Shown: in pieces, positions 3,338-20,617 of the stretch | Layout of the letters: every line of letters starts with the position of its first letter | How positions within the stretch are numbered: the stretch's first letter is position 1 | Assembly: GCA_035712365.1 (NCBI GenBank) | Contig: DASTAW010000062.1 | Span: 62,001-126,000, forward strand | Length of the DNA: 64,000 nucleotides | Direction: 5' to 3' | Source of the DNA: Terriglobia bacterium | Lineage (GTDB): Bacteria; Acidobacteriota; Terriglobia; UBA7540 | The notes under the pieces: model-generated | What the model saw: the letters and a program-made list of their open reading frames with translations, nothing else | Database searches by the model: none | What the model was told of the DNA's origin: nothing | Made by a program: the position numbers and the translations under genes

Positions 3338-4717
3338 CTATTTCAGGCGGTGTTTTGAGTGCCGGTCGCGCACTGATGACCGTACAATCTCGACTGCAGT
3401 GCCGGGCGCGTAATACCCCGGCGGGGCCTGTATTCCCATCAATCCGTGCCGGACCACCTGGACGCGCACGTTATGGAAGCGGCCGTCTTGCTTCGAGTCA
3501 GTTGGATTGTACCCCAGCACGTAATAAGCGGGGGGCAGGGGAATGGCCGCTCCGAATGCGGATTCCAGGTCGTCCTTGTTGCCGATAAATTTGCCGCCGG
3601 TCATGGTGGAGAGGTCCAGAAGAACGTCGGCGGCCATCGACGCTCGGTCCGCCATCATCTGGTTTTTTGCGGCCACAATGGATTCCCGCTCTTCGTCCAG
3701 CCTGCGATTTTGTGTCGGGGCGGGCGTTGGAAGCTGCCTGATCAGGCCGGTGACGTCCACGGTGCTGATGATGATGTGCAGGCGTGTTGCCCGCCGCGCC
3801 AGCAGGTCCACCTCCCTCGCCTCGGAGCCGGCCAGAAACCCGGGAGACGCCACAATGATGCTGCGCGGGTCCGGCAGCGCGGAAACCCGAGCGATCAGGC
3901 CATTCAACCCGTCCAGGGTCTTCCGGGACTGGATTTCGCTTTCAGCAATCACCTGCCTGGCGCGGGCGTTGATGCTTGCGGTCATCTTCTTGAGCGTTGC
4001 AATGGGCAGGCTGCTGGTGGGTGGGTCCTCCTGGCCGCTGCGCGTGCTGCAGGCGTTCATATCCTCGAGGGCGATTCTTAGCGCCAGGGGGTCGCGACCG
4101 TAGAGCAGCATCAGCGATTGAAAATCTGTAAGCGGCGGGCAGGTTTTAGCCTGGCTTCCCGAGGCGAGGTGAGGCTTGATGGCCAGCAAGGTCCGGTGCA
4201 GTTTTTCCCGATCGTCAGTGAAGTCAAGGGTTATCTCGCCTGACGCCGTGAACACGCCGACCTTGTTGCGCGGTCCCAGTGTTGACTTGAAGAAGGAATA
4301 GGCGCTGTCCGTGACGCGGATGGTGTCCGTAAAATCATAATGAAGATCATCGAAATAGAGCGCCGTGTAGCGGACGGTTCCGGGCTCCTTCAGGTTTTGG
4401 ACGGGCTCGGGAATGATGTTTCCGGCAAAGTCGCTGATCTGCTGCAGGCGGTTGTTGTCCCACAGGCGGAAGTCGCGCTGACGCAGATTGCCGACCGCCT
4501 CTCCCCGCACGTCGCGGACCACCACACAAATTTGCACAGCAGGCGGGATCGGCGTGTGGACCACGGCGCGGGGTGGTTGGTTCGTGGCTGGTTGATGGCG
4601 TTTGCTGCGCCTTTGGCCGCGCGCCGGAAGGCTGAAAAGCAGACCTGCGAGCGCGCAACACAGAATCAGGGTCCATTTGGACCATTGTCGGGCGGAACCG
4701 GTTCCCCAATCTGTCAT
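3338..4717 (-). CDS. Secreted VWFA-related acidobacterial domain protein
   Basis: Exported 459-residue protein of the VWFA-related family typical of Acidobacteriota (TIGR03436-like). A signal peptide spans about residues 1-35 (hydrophobic core LILCCALAGLLFSLP). The region around 85-100 (LRQRDFRLWDN) and LYFDDLHYDF near 126 match the family layout, and the end (YYVLGYNPTD, then a GYYAPG tail) is its usual C-terminal beta region. The canonical MIDAS DxSxS is not present: the equivalent strand reads FDDLH. Function is unknown. It precedes mutY with a nine-base gap, an unusual pairing with a DNA repair gene. A second, divergent paralogue lies at 39309-40499. Confidence 0.88.
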   Translation of the reverse strand: MTDWGTGSARQWSKWTLILCCALAGLLFSLPARGQRRSKRHQPATNQPPRAVVHTPIPPAVQICVVVRDVRGEAVGNLRQRDFRLWDNNRLQQISDFAGNIIPEPVQNLKEPGTVRYTALYFDDLHYDFTDTIRVTDSAYSFFKSTLGPRNKVGVFTASGEITLDFTDDREKLHRTLLAIKPHLASGSQAKTCPPLTDFQSLMLLYGRDPLALRIALEDMNACSTRSGQEDPPTSSLPIATLKKMTASINARARQVIAESEIQSRKTLDGLNGLIARVSALPDPRSIIVASPGFLAGSEAREVDLLARRATRLHIIISTVDVTGLIRQLPTPAPTQNRRLDEERESIVAAKNQMMADRASMAADVLLDLSTMTGGKFIGNKDDLESAFGAAIPLPPAYYVLGYNPTDSKQDGRFHNVRVQVVRHGLMGIQAPPGYYAPGTAVEIVRSSVRDRHSKHRLK

Positions 4718-4907
4718 GGAGCGGCCTTCGAAGGAGGGTGTTCCCGCCGGAACGAATACACAGAAAAACCCGCTCTGCGCGCTTGTGTCGGCCTCCCGTT
4801 CAACACAACAAGACCAGTATTATTTCCTGAGGCTGGAATTGTCAACAGAGCATTCGCGCGCGTTGCGTCCTTGATTTGCCGGGCGCAATCTGTAATTCTT
4901 GGGAATC

Positions 4908-4986
4908 GTAGCGGTGTCCCGCCGGGGCGGGACCGCCACCAGACCCACGTTTATAAATCGGAATGGCGGCATAAAGCCGCCTCTAC
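4908..4986. repeat. Palindromic repeat element, family A (GTAGCGG...CTAC)
   Basis: Two GC-rich hairpins in tandem: GTCCCGCC with GGCGGGAC, then GGCGGC-ATAAA-GCCGCC, bounded by GTAGCGG and CTCTAC. The same architecture recurs at 11455-11920, 17553-17614 and 42430-42452. It ends 23 bases before the ubiD start codon, so it lies in that gene's 5' leader or promoter. Confidence 0.7.
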
Positions 4987-5009
4987 AACCTTTAAGCACA
5001 AGGAATGCC

Positions 5010-6494
5010 GTGGCGTACAACGACCTTCGAGAATTTATCACCAGGCTGGAACGGGAAAAGGAACTGAAACGGATCGGCGTTGAGGTTGATGTAGACCTCG
5101 AAATCACCGAGATCACCGACCGCGTCTCCAAGGCTGCGGGCCCGGCCCTGCTTTTTGAAAAGCCCCGCTCGGCAAAAGACGGCCGGAATTATTCCATTCC
5201 TCTTCTGATCAACGCGCTTGGCACAAAGAAGCGTGTGGAGCTGGCGCTGGAAGTAGCTTCACTCGACGATGTGGCAAAGCGCATCGGGGACCTTCTGGCC
5301 ATGAAGCCGCCCGAGGGCCTGCTGGACAAAGTGAGAATGTTGCCCAAGGTCGCCGAACTCGGCTCATTCTTCCCGAAGACGGTAAAGGGCGGCCCGGTCA
5401 AAGAGGTCATCCAGCGCGAAGCCGCATCCCTTCGGGACCTGCCAGTCATGCAATGCTGGCCGCAGGATGGCGGTCGGTTCATCACCTGGCCGATGGTGGT
5501 TACGCGCAGCCCAAAGAGCGGCCGGCGCAACGTGGGCTGCTACCGCATGCAGGTTTTTGATGAGCGGACCACCGGCATGCACTGGCAGGTCCACAAGGGC
5601 GGCGCGGAACATTTCCGGTGGCTTGACCGCCAGGGCAAAGGCCGGCGGATGGATGTGGCCGTGGCCATGGGCGCCGATCCGGTCACCATGCTGGCGGGCA
5701 TCATGCCGCTGCCGGAGGACCTGGACGAATTCCTGTTTGCGGGCTTCCTTCGCCAGAAGCCCGTGGAGCTGGTGCGCTGCGAAACGGTGGACCTGGAAGT
5801 TCCTGCCAATGCGGAAATCGTTTTGGAGGGCTACGTCGATCTCGACGACATCCGCGTGGAAGGGCCGTTTGGCGATCATACCGGGTATTATTCGCTCCAG
5901 GATAATTTCCCGGCGTTTCATCTCACCTGCATCACGCGGCGGAAGAATCCCATCTATGTTTCCACCATCGTCGGCCCTCCGCCCATGGAGGATTACTGGA
6001 TGGGCCATGCGGTCGAGCGCATCTTCCTGCCACTGATGCGCCAGCAGATGCCGGAAGTGGTGGATATGCACATGCCGCCCGAAGGCGTGTTCCACAACCT
6101 GATCATCGTCTCGATTCGCAAGAGCTATCCCGGGCACGCGCGCAAGGTGATGAACGCCATCTGGGGATTGCCGGGCGCCATGTTCTCAAAGTGCATCGTT
6201 GTGGTGGACCATGACGTTGACGTTCATAACCTCGGCGAGGTGGCCTGGAAGGCCTTGAATCATATCGACCCGGAACGCGACATCCAGTTTGTGCTCGGGC
6301 CTGTGGACCAGCTCGAGCATGCTTCGCGGCTGCCGAATTTTGGCTCAAAGATGGGCATCGACGCCACCACGAAGTGGCCCACCGAAGGATTCACTCGCCC
6401 CTGGCCCGATGAAATCATCATGGATGATGAGACCAAAAGAAAAGTGGATGGCCTCTGGAAAACCCTGGGTTTGGATTTACCTCAGCGCACGTAG
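5010..6494 (+). CDS. UbiD family decarboxylase
   Basis: Prenylated-FMN-dependent (de)carboxylase of the UbiD family. In quinone-making bacteria the founding member decarboxylates 4-hydroxy-3-polyprenylbenzoate, but related enzymes act on other aromatic or unsaturated acids, so the substrate is open. From the GTG start the protein has 494 residues, close to the usual 490-500. Conserved segments include NVGCYRMQVFD followed by MHWQVHKGGAEH (cofactor and metal site) and EGPFGDHTGYYS, the catalytic-acid motif. I chose GTG at 5010 because AAGGA lies about six bases upstream; in-frame codons further upstream run through a palindromic repeat and are not family-like. No ubiX flavin prenyltransferase gene is in the window. 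Confidence 0.93.
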   Translation: MAYNDLREFITRLEREKELKRIGVEVDVDLEITEITDRVSKAAGPALLFEKPRSAKDGRNYSIPLLINALGTKKRVELALEVASLDDVAKRIGDLLAMKPPEGLLDKVRMLPKVAELGSFFPKTVKGGPVKEVIQREAASLRDLPVMQCWPQDGGRFITWPMVVTRSPKSGRRNVGCYRMQVFDERTTGMHWQVHKGGAEHFRWLDRQGKGRRMDVAVAMGADPVTMLAGIMPLPEDLDEFLFAGFLRQKPVELVRCETVDLEVPANAEIVLEGYVDLDDIRVEGPFGDHTGYYSLQDNFPAFHLTCITRRKNPIYVSTIVGPPPMEDYWMGHAVERIFLPLMRQQMPEVVDMHMPPEGVFHNLIIVSIRKSYPGHARKVMNAIWGLPGAMFSKCIVVVDHDVDVHNLGEVAWKALNHIDPERDIQFVLGPVDQLEHASRLPNFGSKMGIDATTKWPTEGFTRPWPDEIIMDDETKRKVDGLWKTLGLDLPQRT

Positions 6495-17749: not shown

Positions 17750-18262
17750 TTATGCAAAATGCCGGTTTTCTTGCATGGCGGGTTGAGGTTGATGCCGCAG
17801 AAGAATCCGGAACCCGAGGCCGTGCGTGATCAGCAGCAGCGGCACTATCAAAGTCGGCAGGAAGAATGCGGCTCCCAACTGTCCCGCCAATAGTCCGGCG
17901 TGATTGGCCTGGTAGAAAGCGTTCAGGATATCGGCTGAACCCCAGACGCTGAAGATCCATGCGACGGCAACGCCAGCCGCACCGGGGAGCAATGACAGCG
18001 ACAGCAAGGCAAGTGTCGCCGCAATGATATCTCCATAGGCCGCAGAGTGCGCGAAGGCAGGCGGCAGATCGGGTGACACGACACCGGGAACCAGGAATGC
18101 CAGCCCGATGAAGCGGAAGCTGTGCAGGATGAGCAGAGGCCGCAGCGCATCGGCCCGTGGCCGGAGGCGAAGTTCCGGCCAGATATATCGAGCGGTGACG
18201 GTCCCCCAGGCAATAAAGCTGAACGCGATGCTCAGGAAAAACCAGATCATTTGTTGTGGCAT
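17750..18262 (-). CDS. Multi-pass membrane protein of unknown function
   Basis: A 170-residue protein with about five hydrophobic segments (for example MIWFFLSIAFSFIAWG, LLILHSFRFIGLAFLVP, ATLALLSLSLLPGAAG, FFLPTLIVPLLLITHGLGF). Start at ATG 18262 is set by AAGGAGA eight bases upstream. It lies 16 bases after the NmrA-like gene and is probably the last gene of the TetR-controlled cluster. I do not recognise a named family; a role in the same stress or detoxification response is only inferred from position. Confidence 0.7.
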   Translation of the reverse strand: MPQQMIWFFLSIAFSFIAWGTVTARYIWPELRLRPRADALRPLLILHSFRFIGLAFLVPGVVSPDLPPAFAHSAAYGDIIAATLALLSLSLLPGAAGVAVAWIFSVWGSADILNAFYQANHAGLLAGQLGAAFFLPTLIVPLLLITHGLGFRILLRHQPQPAMQENRHFA

Positions 18263-18278
18263 GTTTAACGTCTCCTTC

Positions 18279-19409
18279 TTAGAATTCCAGCCGTTGACCG
18301 CGACTGGTGGCGGGGATAGGGAGGTGGTCACGTCCCGGTACTGCGGGCTTGGCGGTGTTGGCGATGGCGTGCTCGCGGCGCCAGACTTTGGACTCGGTGG
18401 CGAATTGCGGCTTCGACGGGAACGGGCGGCGCAGTTCGCGGTCGTATCGGTCGAACTTAAAGCCAGGGCTGAGCGGGGCGATCATGAACTGCGCAAACTC
18501 GCGAAACCAATTGCCTAAGGTCCGCTGGTTGCCGGGCAGCGCCGCATAACGACGAGCAATCGTCTCGAAGTCCTCTGGGGGCCGGCCGGTCACATCGAGC
18601 ACGTCGGTGGTTGGCGCCCCCAGCTCGAACGCGCCGCGCTTGTGATCGTCGATGTAGTAGCGAATGCCACTCAACACGTCGATTAGATAACCGATCATTC
18701 GTGCGGCTTTCATGAACAGCCAAGCCGGCGTCGGCACGACCTTGACTGATCGCCCAACGGCTCGGCCGACGGCTTTGGCCATGTCCTCCGCACCAAGAAG
18801 CTCCGGTCCGGTGGGGCGGTAGTTTTTTCCGGCTTGCCGTGCAGGATCGATTAAGGCCGCGACGGCGACCCGCGCGATATCTTCGTTCGAAGGTGGCGCA
18901 TTGCGGCTACCGCCGAATATCCACGGGAACACGCCGAGATGTATGGCCGACCCGATCGTCACCAGGTAGGCGTCAGCGAAGAAGCCTGGCCTGACGATCG
19001 TATGCCCGACGCCAGGCGTCATCGAGAACAGCCGATCAACCAGCCAATGCTGGCGGGTCATGAGCGCGGGATGCGAAGGGCTGGCCAGCCATTGCGTCAT
19101 GACGACGATGTGTTCGAGCCGGGCCTCCTTGGCGGCGACGGCGAAGGCGAGAGCTCCCTGAATCATGTACGGATCGAAAGGCGGACAATAATAGGCGCGC
19201 TGGACGTCCTTCAGCGCGTCGGCCACGCGCTCGACATCGCTCATGTCAGCGACCGCGACCTCGGCCCCTTGCGCTTTCAGCCGCGCGCTGCGGCCATCTT
19301 CTTGATGCACCATGGCACGAACGGGATAACCGGCCTTCAGCAGTTCGCTAACGACAACGCTCCCGGTCTTCCCAGTCGCGCCGGTCACGATGATCCTTGG
19401 CTTGATCAT
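18279..19409 (-). CDS. NmrA-like NAD(P)-binding protein
   Basis: Atypical short-chain dehydrogenase of the NmrA/SDR a5 type, 376 residues. The N-terminus has the nucleotide-binding IIVTGATGKTGSVVV (GxxGxxG at 9-15) followed by a beta-strand with Asp at ADMSDVERV. The family includes quinone and aldehyde reductases and NAD(P) sensors. The catalytic YxxxK of classical SDRs is not obvious, as usual for NmrA proteins. The C-terminal 90 residues (after the domain end near 285) are an extra tail without recognised motif. AAGGAGA lies upstream of ATG 19409. Second gene of the operon behind the TetR operator. Confidence 0.85.
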   Translation of the reverse strand: MIKPRIIVTGATGKTGSVVVSELLKAGYPVRAMVHQEDGRSARLKAQGAEVAVADMSDVERVADALKDVQRAYYCPPFDPYMIQGALAFAVAAKEARLEHIVVMTQWLASPSHPALMTRQHWLVDRLFSMTPGVGHTIVRPGFFADAYLVTIGSAIHLGVFPWIFGGSRNAPPSNEDIARVAVAALIDPARQAGKNYRPTGPELLGAEDMAKAVGRAVGRSVKVVPTPAWLFMKAARMIGYLIDVLSGIRYYIDDHKRGAFELGAPTTDVLDVTGRPPEDFETIARRYAALPGNQRTLGNWFREFAQFMIAPLSPGFKFDRYDRELRRPFPSKPQFATESKVWRREHAIANTAKPAVPGRDHLPIPATSRGQRLEF

Positions 19410-19504
19410 AAACGTCTCCTTCTAAGAAATTTGTCAGCTATTCCGCCGCGCCTCAGAAAGGCCAGCGACGGTTACTCTTACTGACCAACGGTGGCAGCTT
19501 TAGC

Positions 19505-19915
19505 TCACTGCTGCGCTCCTGGGCCCATCAATGCCCTCAGCGGCATCAAGGGTCCGACGGGAATGTACTGGTGATCCATCAAATGTTCCTTCGCGAGCGG
19601 CAGCGTTTCCATAATGGCCCGCGCCTCGTCCTCGGTCTTCGCGTCGACCACGAAGATGACGCCTTTGCCATCGCCGCGCGAATACCACTGGCGGATTTTC
19701 CCGTCGAGGTAGAGCTTCACCGTTGCCCGAATTTCTGCCGGTATGACGGCCATGATTTGGTCAGGGGTTACGCCCTGCCTGGGCGTCTCGATGACGATGA
19801 CTTCCGTGGTTTTAGGTATAGCGATGCTGGGCACGCCTGAGGCGGTCGCCGACTGTGGTTGCGCTAAGAACACCATGGGAAGCACTGCCATAAGAAAAGG
19901 GACCATAAGTTTCAT
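19505..19915 (-). CDS. Exported muconolactone isomerase / YciI-like protein
   Basis: A 136-residue protein with a signal peptide (MKLMVPFLMAVLPMVFLAQP) followed by a ferredoxin-like dimeric alpha/beta barrel: GKIRQWYSRGDGKGVIFVVD, ETLPLAKE, then PVGPLMPLRAL. This matches the muconolactone delta-isomerase/YciI fold; the lactone substrate is not implied. ATG 19915 is preceded by AAGGAT at six bases. It is the first gene behind the second TetR operator (19962-19981), so its expression is probably TetR-controlled. Export of such a domain is unusual. Confidence 0.75.
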   Translation of the reverse strand: MKLMVPFLMAVLPMVFLAQPQSATASGVPSIAIPKTTEVIVIETPRQGVTPDQIMAVIPAEIRATVKLYLDGKIRQWYSRGDGKGVIFVVDAKTEDEARAIMETLPLAKEHLMDHQYIPVGPLMPLRALMGPGAQQ

Positions 19916-19961: not shown

Positions 19962-19981
19962 AAGAGTACGACCATACTCTT
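19962..19981 (-). promoter_or_regulatory. TetR operator 2, upstream of the isomerase-like gene
   Basis: Palindrome AAGAGTA-N6-TACTCTT, the same half-site and spacing as the copy before tetR (20587-20606). On the minus strand it overlaps a possible promoter (TTGCCT, 16 bases, TACTCT). It lies 47 bases before the start at 19915 and 15 bases after the tetR stop. Confidence 0.7.
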
Positions 19982-19996
19982 TCCAGGCAAAAAATT

Positions 19997-20581
19997 TTAC
20001 TCTTCAGCGAAACACTTGATGAAAAAGTTCCTTGCCTCCCTCAACATGTGCTCACGTTTTTGAGCCGACGAGGTCATCCGGACATTCGTCAACACCCCAG
20101 CCATGCTCGGGAACAGCAGTTGAAACTTCGTCAGCTTTTCTTCTCGCGTCTGACCAGGCACAAATGGCAATAGACGCTCACGATACGCTTCGCGCAATGC
20201 CTCAATCCGTTTTCGCACGGGCAACGGCTTTCGGGCGAGCTCTGGCCCGAGGGCGGCGAAGACGCAACCCATTCCTGGCGAGTTCGCGTGGCGTGTGCTC
20301 AGATAGCGTTCGATAATGGCCCGCAGAGCCTGGCCTTCGGGCGCTGACTGTGCAGCTTCCAGCATGCCTCTTCCCATCTCATCGAACGCTCGCGCTACCG
20401 CGCCAACAAAAAGGTCATCCTTGCTGTCAAAGTGGCGGTAAAAGCCCCCTTTCGCCAAGCCTGCCTTCTTCATGACCGTGCCGATGCCACTGCTGTCCCC
20501 GCCGTGCTCCCGGAACGAGCGAGCGGCCATGGAAAGAATCTTCTCGTGGTTCTGCGCTTTGTGTTCCAGCGAGTATCGCAT
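19997..20581 (-). CDS. TetR/AcrR family transcriptional regulator
   Basis: A 194-residue repressor-type protein. The N-terminal helix-turn-helix is typical: KILSMAARSFREHGGDSSGIG, then VMKKAGLAKGGFYRHFDSKDDLF (about 30-52). The C-terminal ligand domain ends KREHMLREARNFF. I set the start at ATG 20581, since the upstream in-frame codons would run through the palindromic operator. The gene product likely binds AAGAGTA-N6-TACTCTT at 20587-20606 and at 19962-19981, controlling itself and the isomerase/NmrA/membrane protein cluster. The inducer is unknown; the neighbours hint at quinones or other electrophiles. Confidence 0.88.
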   Translation of the reverse strand: MRYSLEHKAQNHEKILSMAARSFREHGGDSSGIGTVMKKAGLAKGGFYRHFDSKDDLFVGAVARAFDEMGRGMLEAAQSAPEGQALRAIIERYLSTRHANSPGMGCVFAALGPELARKPLPVRKRIEALREAYRERLLPFVPGQTREEKLTKFQLLFPSMAGVLTNVRMTSSAQKREHMLREARNFFIKCFAEE

Positions 20582-20586
20582 GACAT

Positions 20587-20617
20587 AAGAGTACGCACGT
20601 ACTCTAATGCTTGTCAA
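20587..20617 (-). promoter_or_regulatory. tetR promoter with TetR operator 1
   Basis: On the minus strand TTGACA (20617-20612), an 18-base spacer and TACTCT (20593-20588). The palindrome AGAGTACGCACGTACTCT (20588-20605) covers the spacer and the -10 box, so bound repressor would block polymerase. Predicted transcription begins at about the A of the tetR ATG (20581), which suggests a leaderless message. Confidence 0.7.

Follow-up and report, generated by a model that had tools for sequence, protein, structure and literature searches.

A conserved pair of palindromic candidate operators flanking a TetR-family regulator gene in Acidobacteria

Introduction

Among the regulators described so far, the best published parallel to the mode of action considered in this study is AcuR of Rhodobacter sphaeroides. 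As reported in PMC3017554, AcuR is a TetR repressor encoded in the operon acuR-acuI-dddL, with a palindrome, TAATAGAC-N6-GTCTATTA, located over the promoter, and its inducer is acrylate, a reactive compound. The acuR mRNA is leaderless and has no Shine-Dalgarno sequence, and AcuR is translated less than the products of the downstream genes; a fusion value of about 7.5% is also given. According to the same report, the operon is transcribed from a single promoter, and no internal promoter was found (PMC3017554). A second reference system is NemR of Escherichia coli (nemRA-gloA), for which a switch composed of Cys106 and Lys175 is reported (PMC7464077, PMC5297802).

The locus studied here is part of a stretch of DNA of 64,000 nucleotides, the whole of which was analysed and is referred to as the window. 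It is centred on a tetR gene (19997..20581, minus strand) encoding P0001, a TetR/AcrR-family regulator of 194 amino acids. As in the AcuR system, the repressor gene is placed directly before its presumed targets, and a palindrome with a 6-bp centre overlaps its promoter; the leaderless repressor mRNA, demonstrated for AcuR, is predicted for P0001. Unlike the acuR operon, however, the locus has a second operator and a candidate promoter between the repressor and the targets, and both the operator letters and the target genes are different. In addition, P0001 is not itself an AcuR, as it scores 38.4 bits against the AcuR model NF051457, whose cut-off is 247. NemR shares with P0001 the protein family, the adjacent detoxification genes and an aligned Cys106, but the two proteins are 21% identical, their targets differ, and Lys175, Cys21 and Cys116 of NemR are missing in P0001.

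Uncharacterised divergent TetR-NmrA gene pairs of Proteobacteria (e.g. loci L020, L023 and L044) provide a third term of comparison. Homologous genes are adjacent in these pairs, as they are in the window, and are accompanied by a same-frame palindrome, AGATGA-N6-TCATCT or close to it. The pairs differ from the window in their divergent layout, in the other letters of the operator, in the presence of His for Lys before GGFY and in their TetR proteins, which are about 29-48% identical. Several divergent TetR-NmrA pairs (e.g. L025 and L028) gave no significant palindrome. An earlier, sequence-only reading of the window had regarded operator, target genes and their combination as undescribed. Among the matches listed by an open-access text search, neither the operator nor the TetR-NmrA-MIase unit is described (MIase stands for muconolactone isomerase), but the claim needs qualification in that relatives bear same-frame sites with other letters.

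Results

The sequence-only reading had placed matching palindromes on both sides of tetR, and both are present. The upstream operator O1 (AAGAGTA-N6-TACTCTA; 20587..20606, assigned to neither strand) reads AAGAGTACGCACGTACTCTA in the sequence and covers the spacer and the -10 box of the candidate tetR promoter. The second operator O2 (AAGAGTA-N6-TACTCTT; 19962..19981, likewise without strand), which reads AAGAGTACGACCATACTCTT, is located just past tetR, upstream of the MIase-NmrA-membrane operon. Perfect copies of AGAGTA-N6-TACTCT are found in the whole window only at 19963-19980 and 20588-20605. When up to three mismatches were allowed, the window gave nine matches against the 6.8 expected by shuffling; the looser matches are therefore at chance level, and only the perfect copies are meaningful. 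The whole-genome search for which the sequence-only reading had called was also performed, and the 4,667,009 bases of the genome contain two perfect places, both at this locus, compared with none for the reversed control pattern. A chance origin of O1 and O2 can be ruled out on the basis of these genome-unique perfect copies and of the co-occurrence in the phylum and the column conservation reported below.

Orthologues were retrieved by a scan of contigs and by searches of genomes from the phylum (297 genomes), the class (399) and relatives (61). This gave 20 orthologous loci, including the window, with one locus for each TetR copy except for the second copy in L147. Because L021 is cut by the end of its contig, counts concerning O2 and the downstream genes use 19 loci; column averages do not include L146, which is near-identical to L145. 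The TetR proteins of the other orthologous loci are 69-90% identical to P0001 (90% over 49 residues for the truncated L021), and at the thresholds used the distribution of close orthologues is patchy (14 of 399 class genomes, 3 of 61 relatives).

O1 starts 24-26 bp ahead of the tetR start codon in all 20 loci, and out of its 12 half-site positions it shows no mismatch in eight loci, one in six, two in five and three in a single locus (L156). O2 is without mismatches in 14 of the 19 loci, with one mismatch in four and two in one. The sequence-only reading had made its case depend on conservation of the palindrome upstream of orthologous tetR genes; the palindrome is indeed retained, with at most two mismatches, in 19/20 loci for O1 and in 19/19 for O2. 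The mean column conservation of the half-sites is 0.93 for O1 (19 rows) and 0.97 for O2 (18 rows), against 0.48 and 0.55 for the respective 40-bp left flanks. Of the right flanks, that of O2 is at 0.43 and that of O1, which is coding, at 0.69.

In the phylum sample, the exact longer form AGAGTAC-N4-GTACTCT occurs in 4 of 297 genomes, and these are the same four that contain a TetR orthologue of at least 75% identity. A TetR match at E <= 1e-15 is present in 26 of the 297, and the exact long operator is absent from the 22 whose match is more distant. In the MAG locus L009, labelled Spirochaetia and encoding a TetR protein 60% identical, TTGACA and a palindrome near the start codon are retained; the palindrome is degenerate (three mismatches), and no second operator site was found in this locus. 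It should also be mentioned that in L147 (contig 69 of G313) tetR is tandemly duplicated together with both operators, at +0 and +4596 from tetR, the second copy being followed by a truncated NmrA gene and then by the membrane gene.

Each operator contains a candidate -10 box. For tetR, the candidate -35 box TTGACA (20612..20617, minus strand) is 18 bp from the candidate -10 box TACTCT (20588..20593, minus strand), which lies within O1 and ends 6 nt before the start codon. Within O2, TACTCT (19963..19968, minus strand) is the candidate -10 box of the operon promoter, and is 16 bp from a weak candidate -35 box, TTGCCT (19985..19990, minus strand). The tetR -35 box reads TTGAC in 19 and TTGACA in 15 of the 20 orthologous loci, at 16-18 bp from the -10 box, and the gene-proximal half of O1 has the form TAnnnT in all of them (TACTCT in 17 loci, TACGCT in another two and TAATCT in the last). 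The -10 hexamer of O2 is TACTCT in most orthologues (TACGCT in L148 and L156, TACGCG in L152), and the letters of its -35 box vary. Hexamers beginning with TT are present 16-18 bp from this -10 box in 19/19 loci, which is trivial because of a T-tract (19989..19994, minus strand) that lies between the tetR stop codon and O2 and is retained in most of the 19 orthologues. This T-tract may be either an upstream element or the remnant of a terminator. The sequence-only reading had taken both copies of TACTCT as candidate -10 boxes. In favour of this assignment is the conserved pairing of the hexamer with TTGAC at O1; against it are the agreement with TATAAT at three of six positions (TA...T), the weak -35 box at O2 and a simple promoter scan, which reported no promoter at O1 or O2.

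The distance from the end of the tetR -10 box to the start codon is 6 nt in 15 loci, 7 nt in four and 8 nt in one. Since transcription generally begins about 7 nt past the -10 box, the tetR mRNA would start at or near its start codon. No Shine-Dalgarno word is present in the last 18 nt before tetR in any of the 20 orthologues, and the tetR mRNA is probably leaderless. An arrangement of the AcuR type, with the promoter at the start codon and no Shine-Dalgarno sequence, fits all 20 orthologues, as judged by sequence alone. As for the first gene behind O2, a Shine-Dalgarno word is found at most 25 nt before it in 16 of 19 loci, where the start of the protein match was used as the gene start and the list of words was somewhat longer.

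P0001 contains the TetR_N helix-turn-helix domain (PF00440, E-value 2.9e-11; 43.4 bits, cut-off 24), with GLAKGGFYRHF as recognition helix. Its match to PF16925 (8.8e-06) is just below the gathering score, no NCBIfam equivalog cut-off is reached, and the closest PDB relative, 2fd5, which is followed by Mce3R and others, is named just 'transcriptional regulator'. Cys106 is the only cysteine of P0001 retained in all 20 aligned orthologues, and its counterpart in NemR from E. coli (locus L199) is likewise Cys106. Of 115 aligned sequences, including NemR, 114 have cysteine at this position; being nearly universal in the aligned set, this residue indicates membership of the subfamily rather than redox sensing. 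The positions of NemR Cys21 and Cys116 are occupied in the 20 orthologues by Phe (in one case Ile) and by Ala, Ser or Gly, respectively, and that of Lys175 by Arg168 in P0001. In view of this near-universal cysteine and of the missing partner residues, redox sensing of the NemR type through Cys106 was retained as a lead only.

Three genes follow O2 in the window. The first (19505..19915, minus strand) encodes P0002, a MIase/YciI-fold protein of 136 amino acids, which scores 20.2 bits (E-value 0.00066) with the muconolactone isomerase family PF02426, below the gathering cut-off of 26.7, and for which the PDB yields no relative by sequence at E <= 1. Its structural model, which has high confidence in the domain (about residues 38-120), superimposes on ClcF (Z 11.3, rmsd 2.7, 87 aligned residues), TftG (Z 10.7, rmsd 2.2, 84 aligned) and the YciI-type protein HI0828 (Z 10.5, rmsd 2.6, 88 aligned). 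The three Z values are to be considered tied, and the identities are 16-24% for ClcF and TftG and 9% for HI0828. The model agrees with a fold of the muconolactone isomerase type, which is a predicted fold and not a predicted activity. Unlike ClcF, TftG and YciI-type proteins, P0002 has an N-terminal hydrophobic stretch, which resembles a signal peptide when judged from the sequence.

The second gene (18279..19409, minus strand), an accessory member of the operon, encodes the NmrA-like NAD(P)-binding protein P0003 (376 amino acids; PF05368, E-value 6.8e-19, 69 bits, cut-off 27), whose PDB relatives are SimC7 and YtfG, the latter a quinone reductase. The third (17750..18262, minus strand) encodes P0004, a small hydrophobic membrane protein of 170 amino acids with no Pfam family and nothing meaningful among its PDB sequence relatives; its model is helical, with a mean pLDDT of 64.3, and was too poor for a structure search. 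The ribosome-binding leaders of the membrane gene and of the NmrA gene (AAGGAGACGTT) lie within the two copies of an 18-nt direct repeat (94%; window positions 18267-18284 and 19411-19428).

The first gene behind O2 is MIase-like in 17 of 19 loci and a membrane gene in the remaining two, and a homologue of the membrane protein is present in 15 of 19, upstream of tetR in L151 and behind the second tetR copy in L147. A substantial NmrA match was obtained in three of 19 loci (the window, L005 and L147), and L150 has a remnant of 27 residues. With such a low occurrence compared to the MIase-like and membrane genes, NmrA does not belong to the core of the unit. The core targets are the exported-looking MIase-fold protein and/or the membrane protein, and NmrA is an occasional passenger. 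Thus, of the three target genes assigned by the sequence-only reading, all are present in the window, but NmrA falls outside the conserved unit. In Terriglobus albidus (L151), a third site with one mismatch is located before two further homologues of the membrane gene upstream of tetR. In both L151 and L152, an ORF resembling a CcdA/DsbD-type membrane protein, as judged by eye, comes after the MIase-like gene, at 2.5 kb from the start of tetR. In the MAG locus L008, the MIase-like gene (4665-5066) is interrupted in frame by a stop that follows codon 68, with the remainder reading like a normal relative, which could indicate either a pseudogene or a sequencing error.

The analysis was extended to more distant TetR relatives, taken as one best match per locus at E <= 1e-8, with L001, L002 and L113-L142 left out beforehand. 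After removal of 19 repeat loci, of the truncated L021 and of four loci without the helix pattern, 125 were left, and a further 11 without GG, GA or GP before FY were dropped, leaving 114. A motif-free palindrome search was positive at p <= 0.05 in 65 of these 114 loci; considering that two regions were searched per locus, up to about 11 may be chance passes, and the palindromes listed for L038, L091 and L194 look spurious. The other 49 loci, which had no palindrome at p <= 0.05, are outside the counts given below, for which one best site per locus was used. Near-perfect palindromes, AATATGATGATCATCATATT and TTATATTATCACCATAATATAA, were also seen beside TetR genes of other branches of the subfamily (L100, L103, L176 and relatives).

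Read from the outside in (positions -9 to -4), the half-site is AGAGTA in the clade of the window, mostly AGATGA in relatives with HGGFYRHF, GGATTA with ..GGFYKHF, and ATATGA or ATATTA with ..GGFYAHF. The operator can be seen as one form of a site shared across the family; the letters of this site, to judge from these alignments, tend to follow the residues of the recognition helix. If the helix is written x1-GGFY-x2-HF, Arg or Lys at x2 is associated with G at -8 (39 of 47) and Ala with T at -8 (11 of 13), while Lys at x1 is associated with G at -6 and T at -5 (19/19), and His with T at -6 (27 of 36) and G at -5 (24 of 36). The association is plain from these raw counts, which led us to propose, tentatively and at rather less than even odds, a simple recognition code in which x2 sets base -8 and x1 sets bases -6/-5. 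Under this code, x2 would specify G (Arg or Lys), T (Ala), C (Ser or Val) or A (Asn) at -8, and x1 would specify TG (His) or GT (Lys) at -6/-5; the clade of the window would have switched x1 to Lys, and its operators would have changed along with it. The subfamily concerned spans Acidobacteria, Proteobacteria and a few others. A TetR tree built without residues x1 and x2 unites the clade of the window, which has 19 rows and a support of 99, with the GGATTA clade on a branch that is not starred (support 94). On the starred branches, only three independent pairs show a difference in x2 class; on average 1.7 of them agree with the code and none opposes it, which is not significant in a sign test on these three pairs. 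The link between Lys at x1 and G at -6 comes from a single clade, and there are observations counter to the code: T is found at -6 in L009, whose TetR is 60% identical and has Lys at x1, and one half of the weaker operator copy, O1, also carries T at this position in four loci, with the letters AGATGA in L145, L146 and L153 and AGATTA in L151.

Discussion

We read the locus as a local, self-limiting TetR repressor switch with two operators, and assign to this reading a probability of about 0.8. A TetR dimer would bind the two near-identical 20-bp operators. At O1 it would cover the spacer and the -10 box of its own promoter, resulting in autoregulation, and at O2 the promoter of the adjacent MIase-NmrA-membrane operon. 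Because the gene-proximal operator half is a candidate -10 box at both sites, repression is expected to occur by blocking of RNA polymerase. The mRNA of the target operon would have a leader with a Shine-Dalgarno sequence, while a leaderless tetR mRNA devoid of one implies that the repressor may be made sparingly. That the sites are conserved at fixed positions between poorly conserved flanks supports the earlier proposal of auto-repression and of control of the downstream operon. In addition, O2 is better conserved and nearer to perfect than O1, which suggests that the target is controlled more tightly than the repressor; considering the five loci with two mismatches in O1 and the one with three, some of them may have only weak autoregulation or may have lost it. 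An inducer would release TetR from the operators. From the enzyme folds and relatives and from the conserved cysteine, one may guess, on thin grounds, that this inducer is small and electrophilic or aromatic, for instance a quinone or an aldehyde.

The regulon looks local. In 10 distinct genomes, sites with at most one mismatch outside the tetR locus amounted to 24 places, compared with 50 when the pattern was reversed as a control; G281 and G300, whose places were the same, were counted once. A genome-wide regulon was rejected on this lack of any excess. An extra site common to G094 and G163 is inside a coding stretch, and the site at +4348 in L152 appears, from its letters, to belong to the 3' end of coding sequence. 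The same counts bear on the idea that the palindromes belong to another, unlinked regulator, of which tetR would be merely one target. Binding by the linked TetR is a prediction from sequence, which leaves some room for this idea; nevertheless, we consider it very improbable, since not only are outside sites not in excess, but the exact site occurs in the phylum sample only together with a close tetR orthologue, and many TetR relatives have same-frame palindromes beside their own genes, with letters tending to follow the recognition helix.

It is also conceivable that O1 and O2, about 625 bp apart, loop the tetR gene, so that repression of each promoter needs both sites. Both sites are nearly always present, at a spacing of 623-632 bp in the 19 loci, as looping would require. 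This spacing, however, merely reflects how long the tetR gene is, and its variation from 623-627 bp in 17 loci to 631-632 bp in L144 and L003 is a shift of about half a helical turn or more, implying that no strict phasing between the sites is kept. Looping therefore appears improbable. A further alternative, which we regard as unlikely, follows the acuR-acuI-dddL model: a single promoter at O1 would serve both tetR and the operon, and O2 would act as a roadblock or a decoy. The weak and variable -35 box of O2 would fit this arrangement, as would the precedent of the AcuR operon, in which no internal promoter was found (PMC3017554). On the other hand, O2 is more conserved than O1 and ends in the same TACTCT in most loci, and the gene after it has a Shine-Dalgarno word in 16/19 loci.

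Conclusions

The locus is a conserved and well-formed instance of ordinary bacterial regulation and does not overturn what is known of TetR proteins; a specialist would not be greatly surprised by the two operators, by a tetR gene laid out for a leaderless mRNA or by letters specific to the clade. For an acidobacterial TetR clade that is still uncharacterised, the results provide an exact operator that can be tested; when an open-access text search named this phylum, none of the papers listed contained that name. They also place two proteins with no assigned role, one with a MIase fold and the other a membrane protein with no Pfam family, in one probably inducible unit.

Finally, the alignment of operators with recognition helices represents a cheap starting point for a specificity code. 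If the code holds true, its combination with a repressor made from a leaderless mRNA and with an operator of their own for the targets would make this family a ready set of orthogonal sensors.
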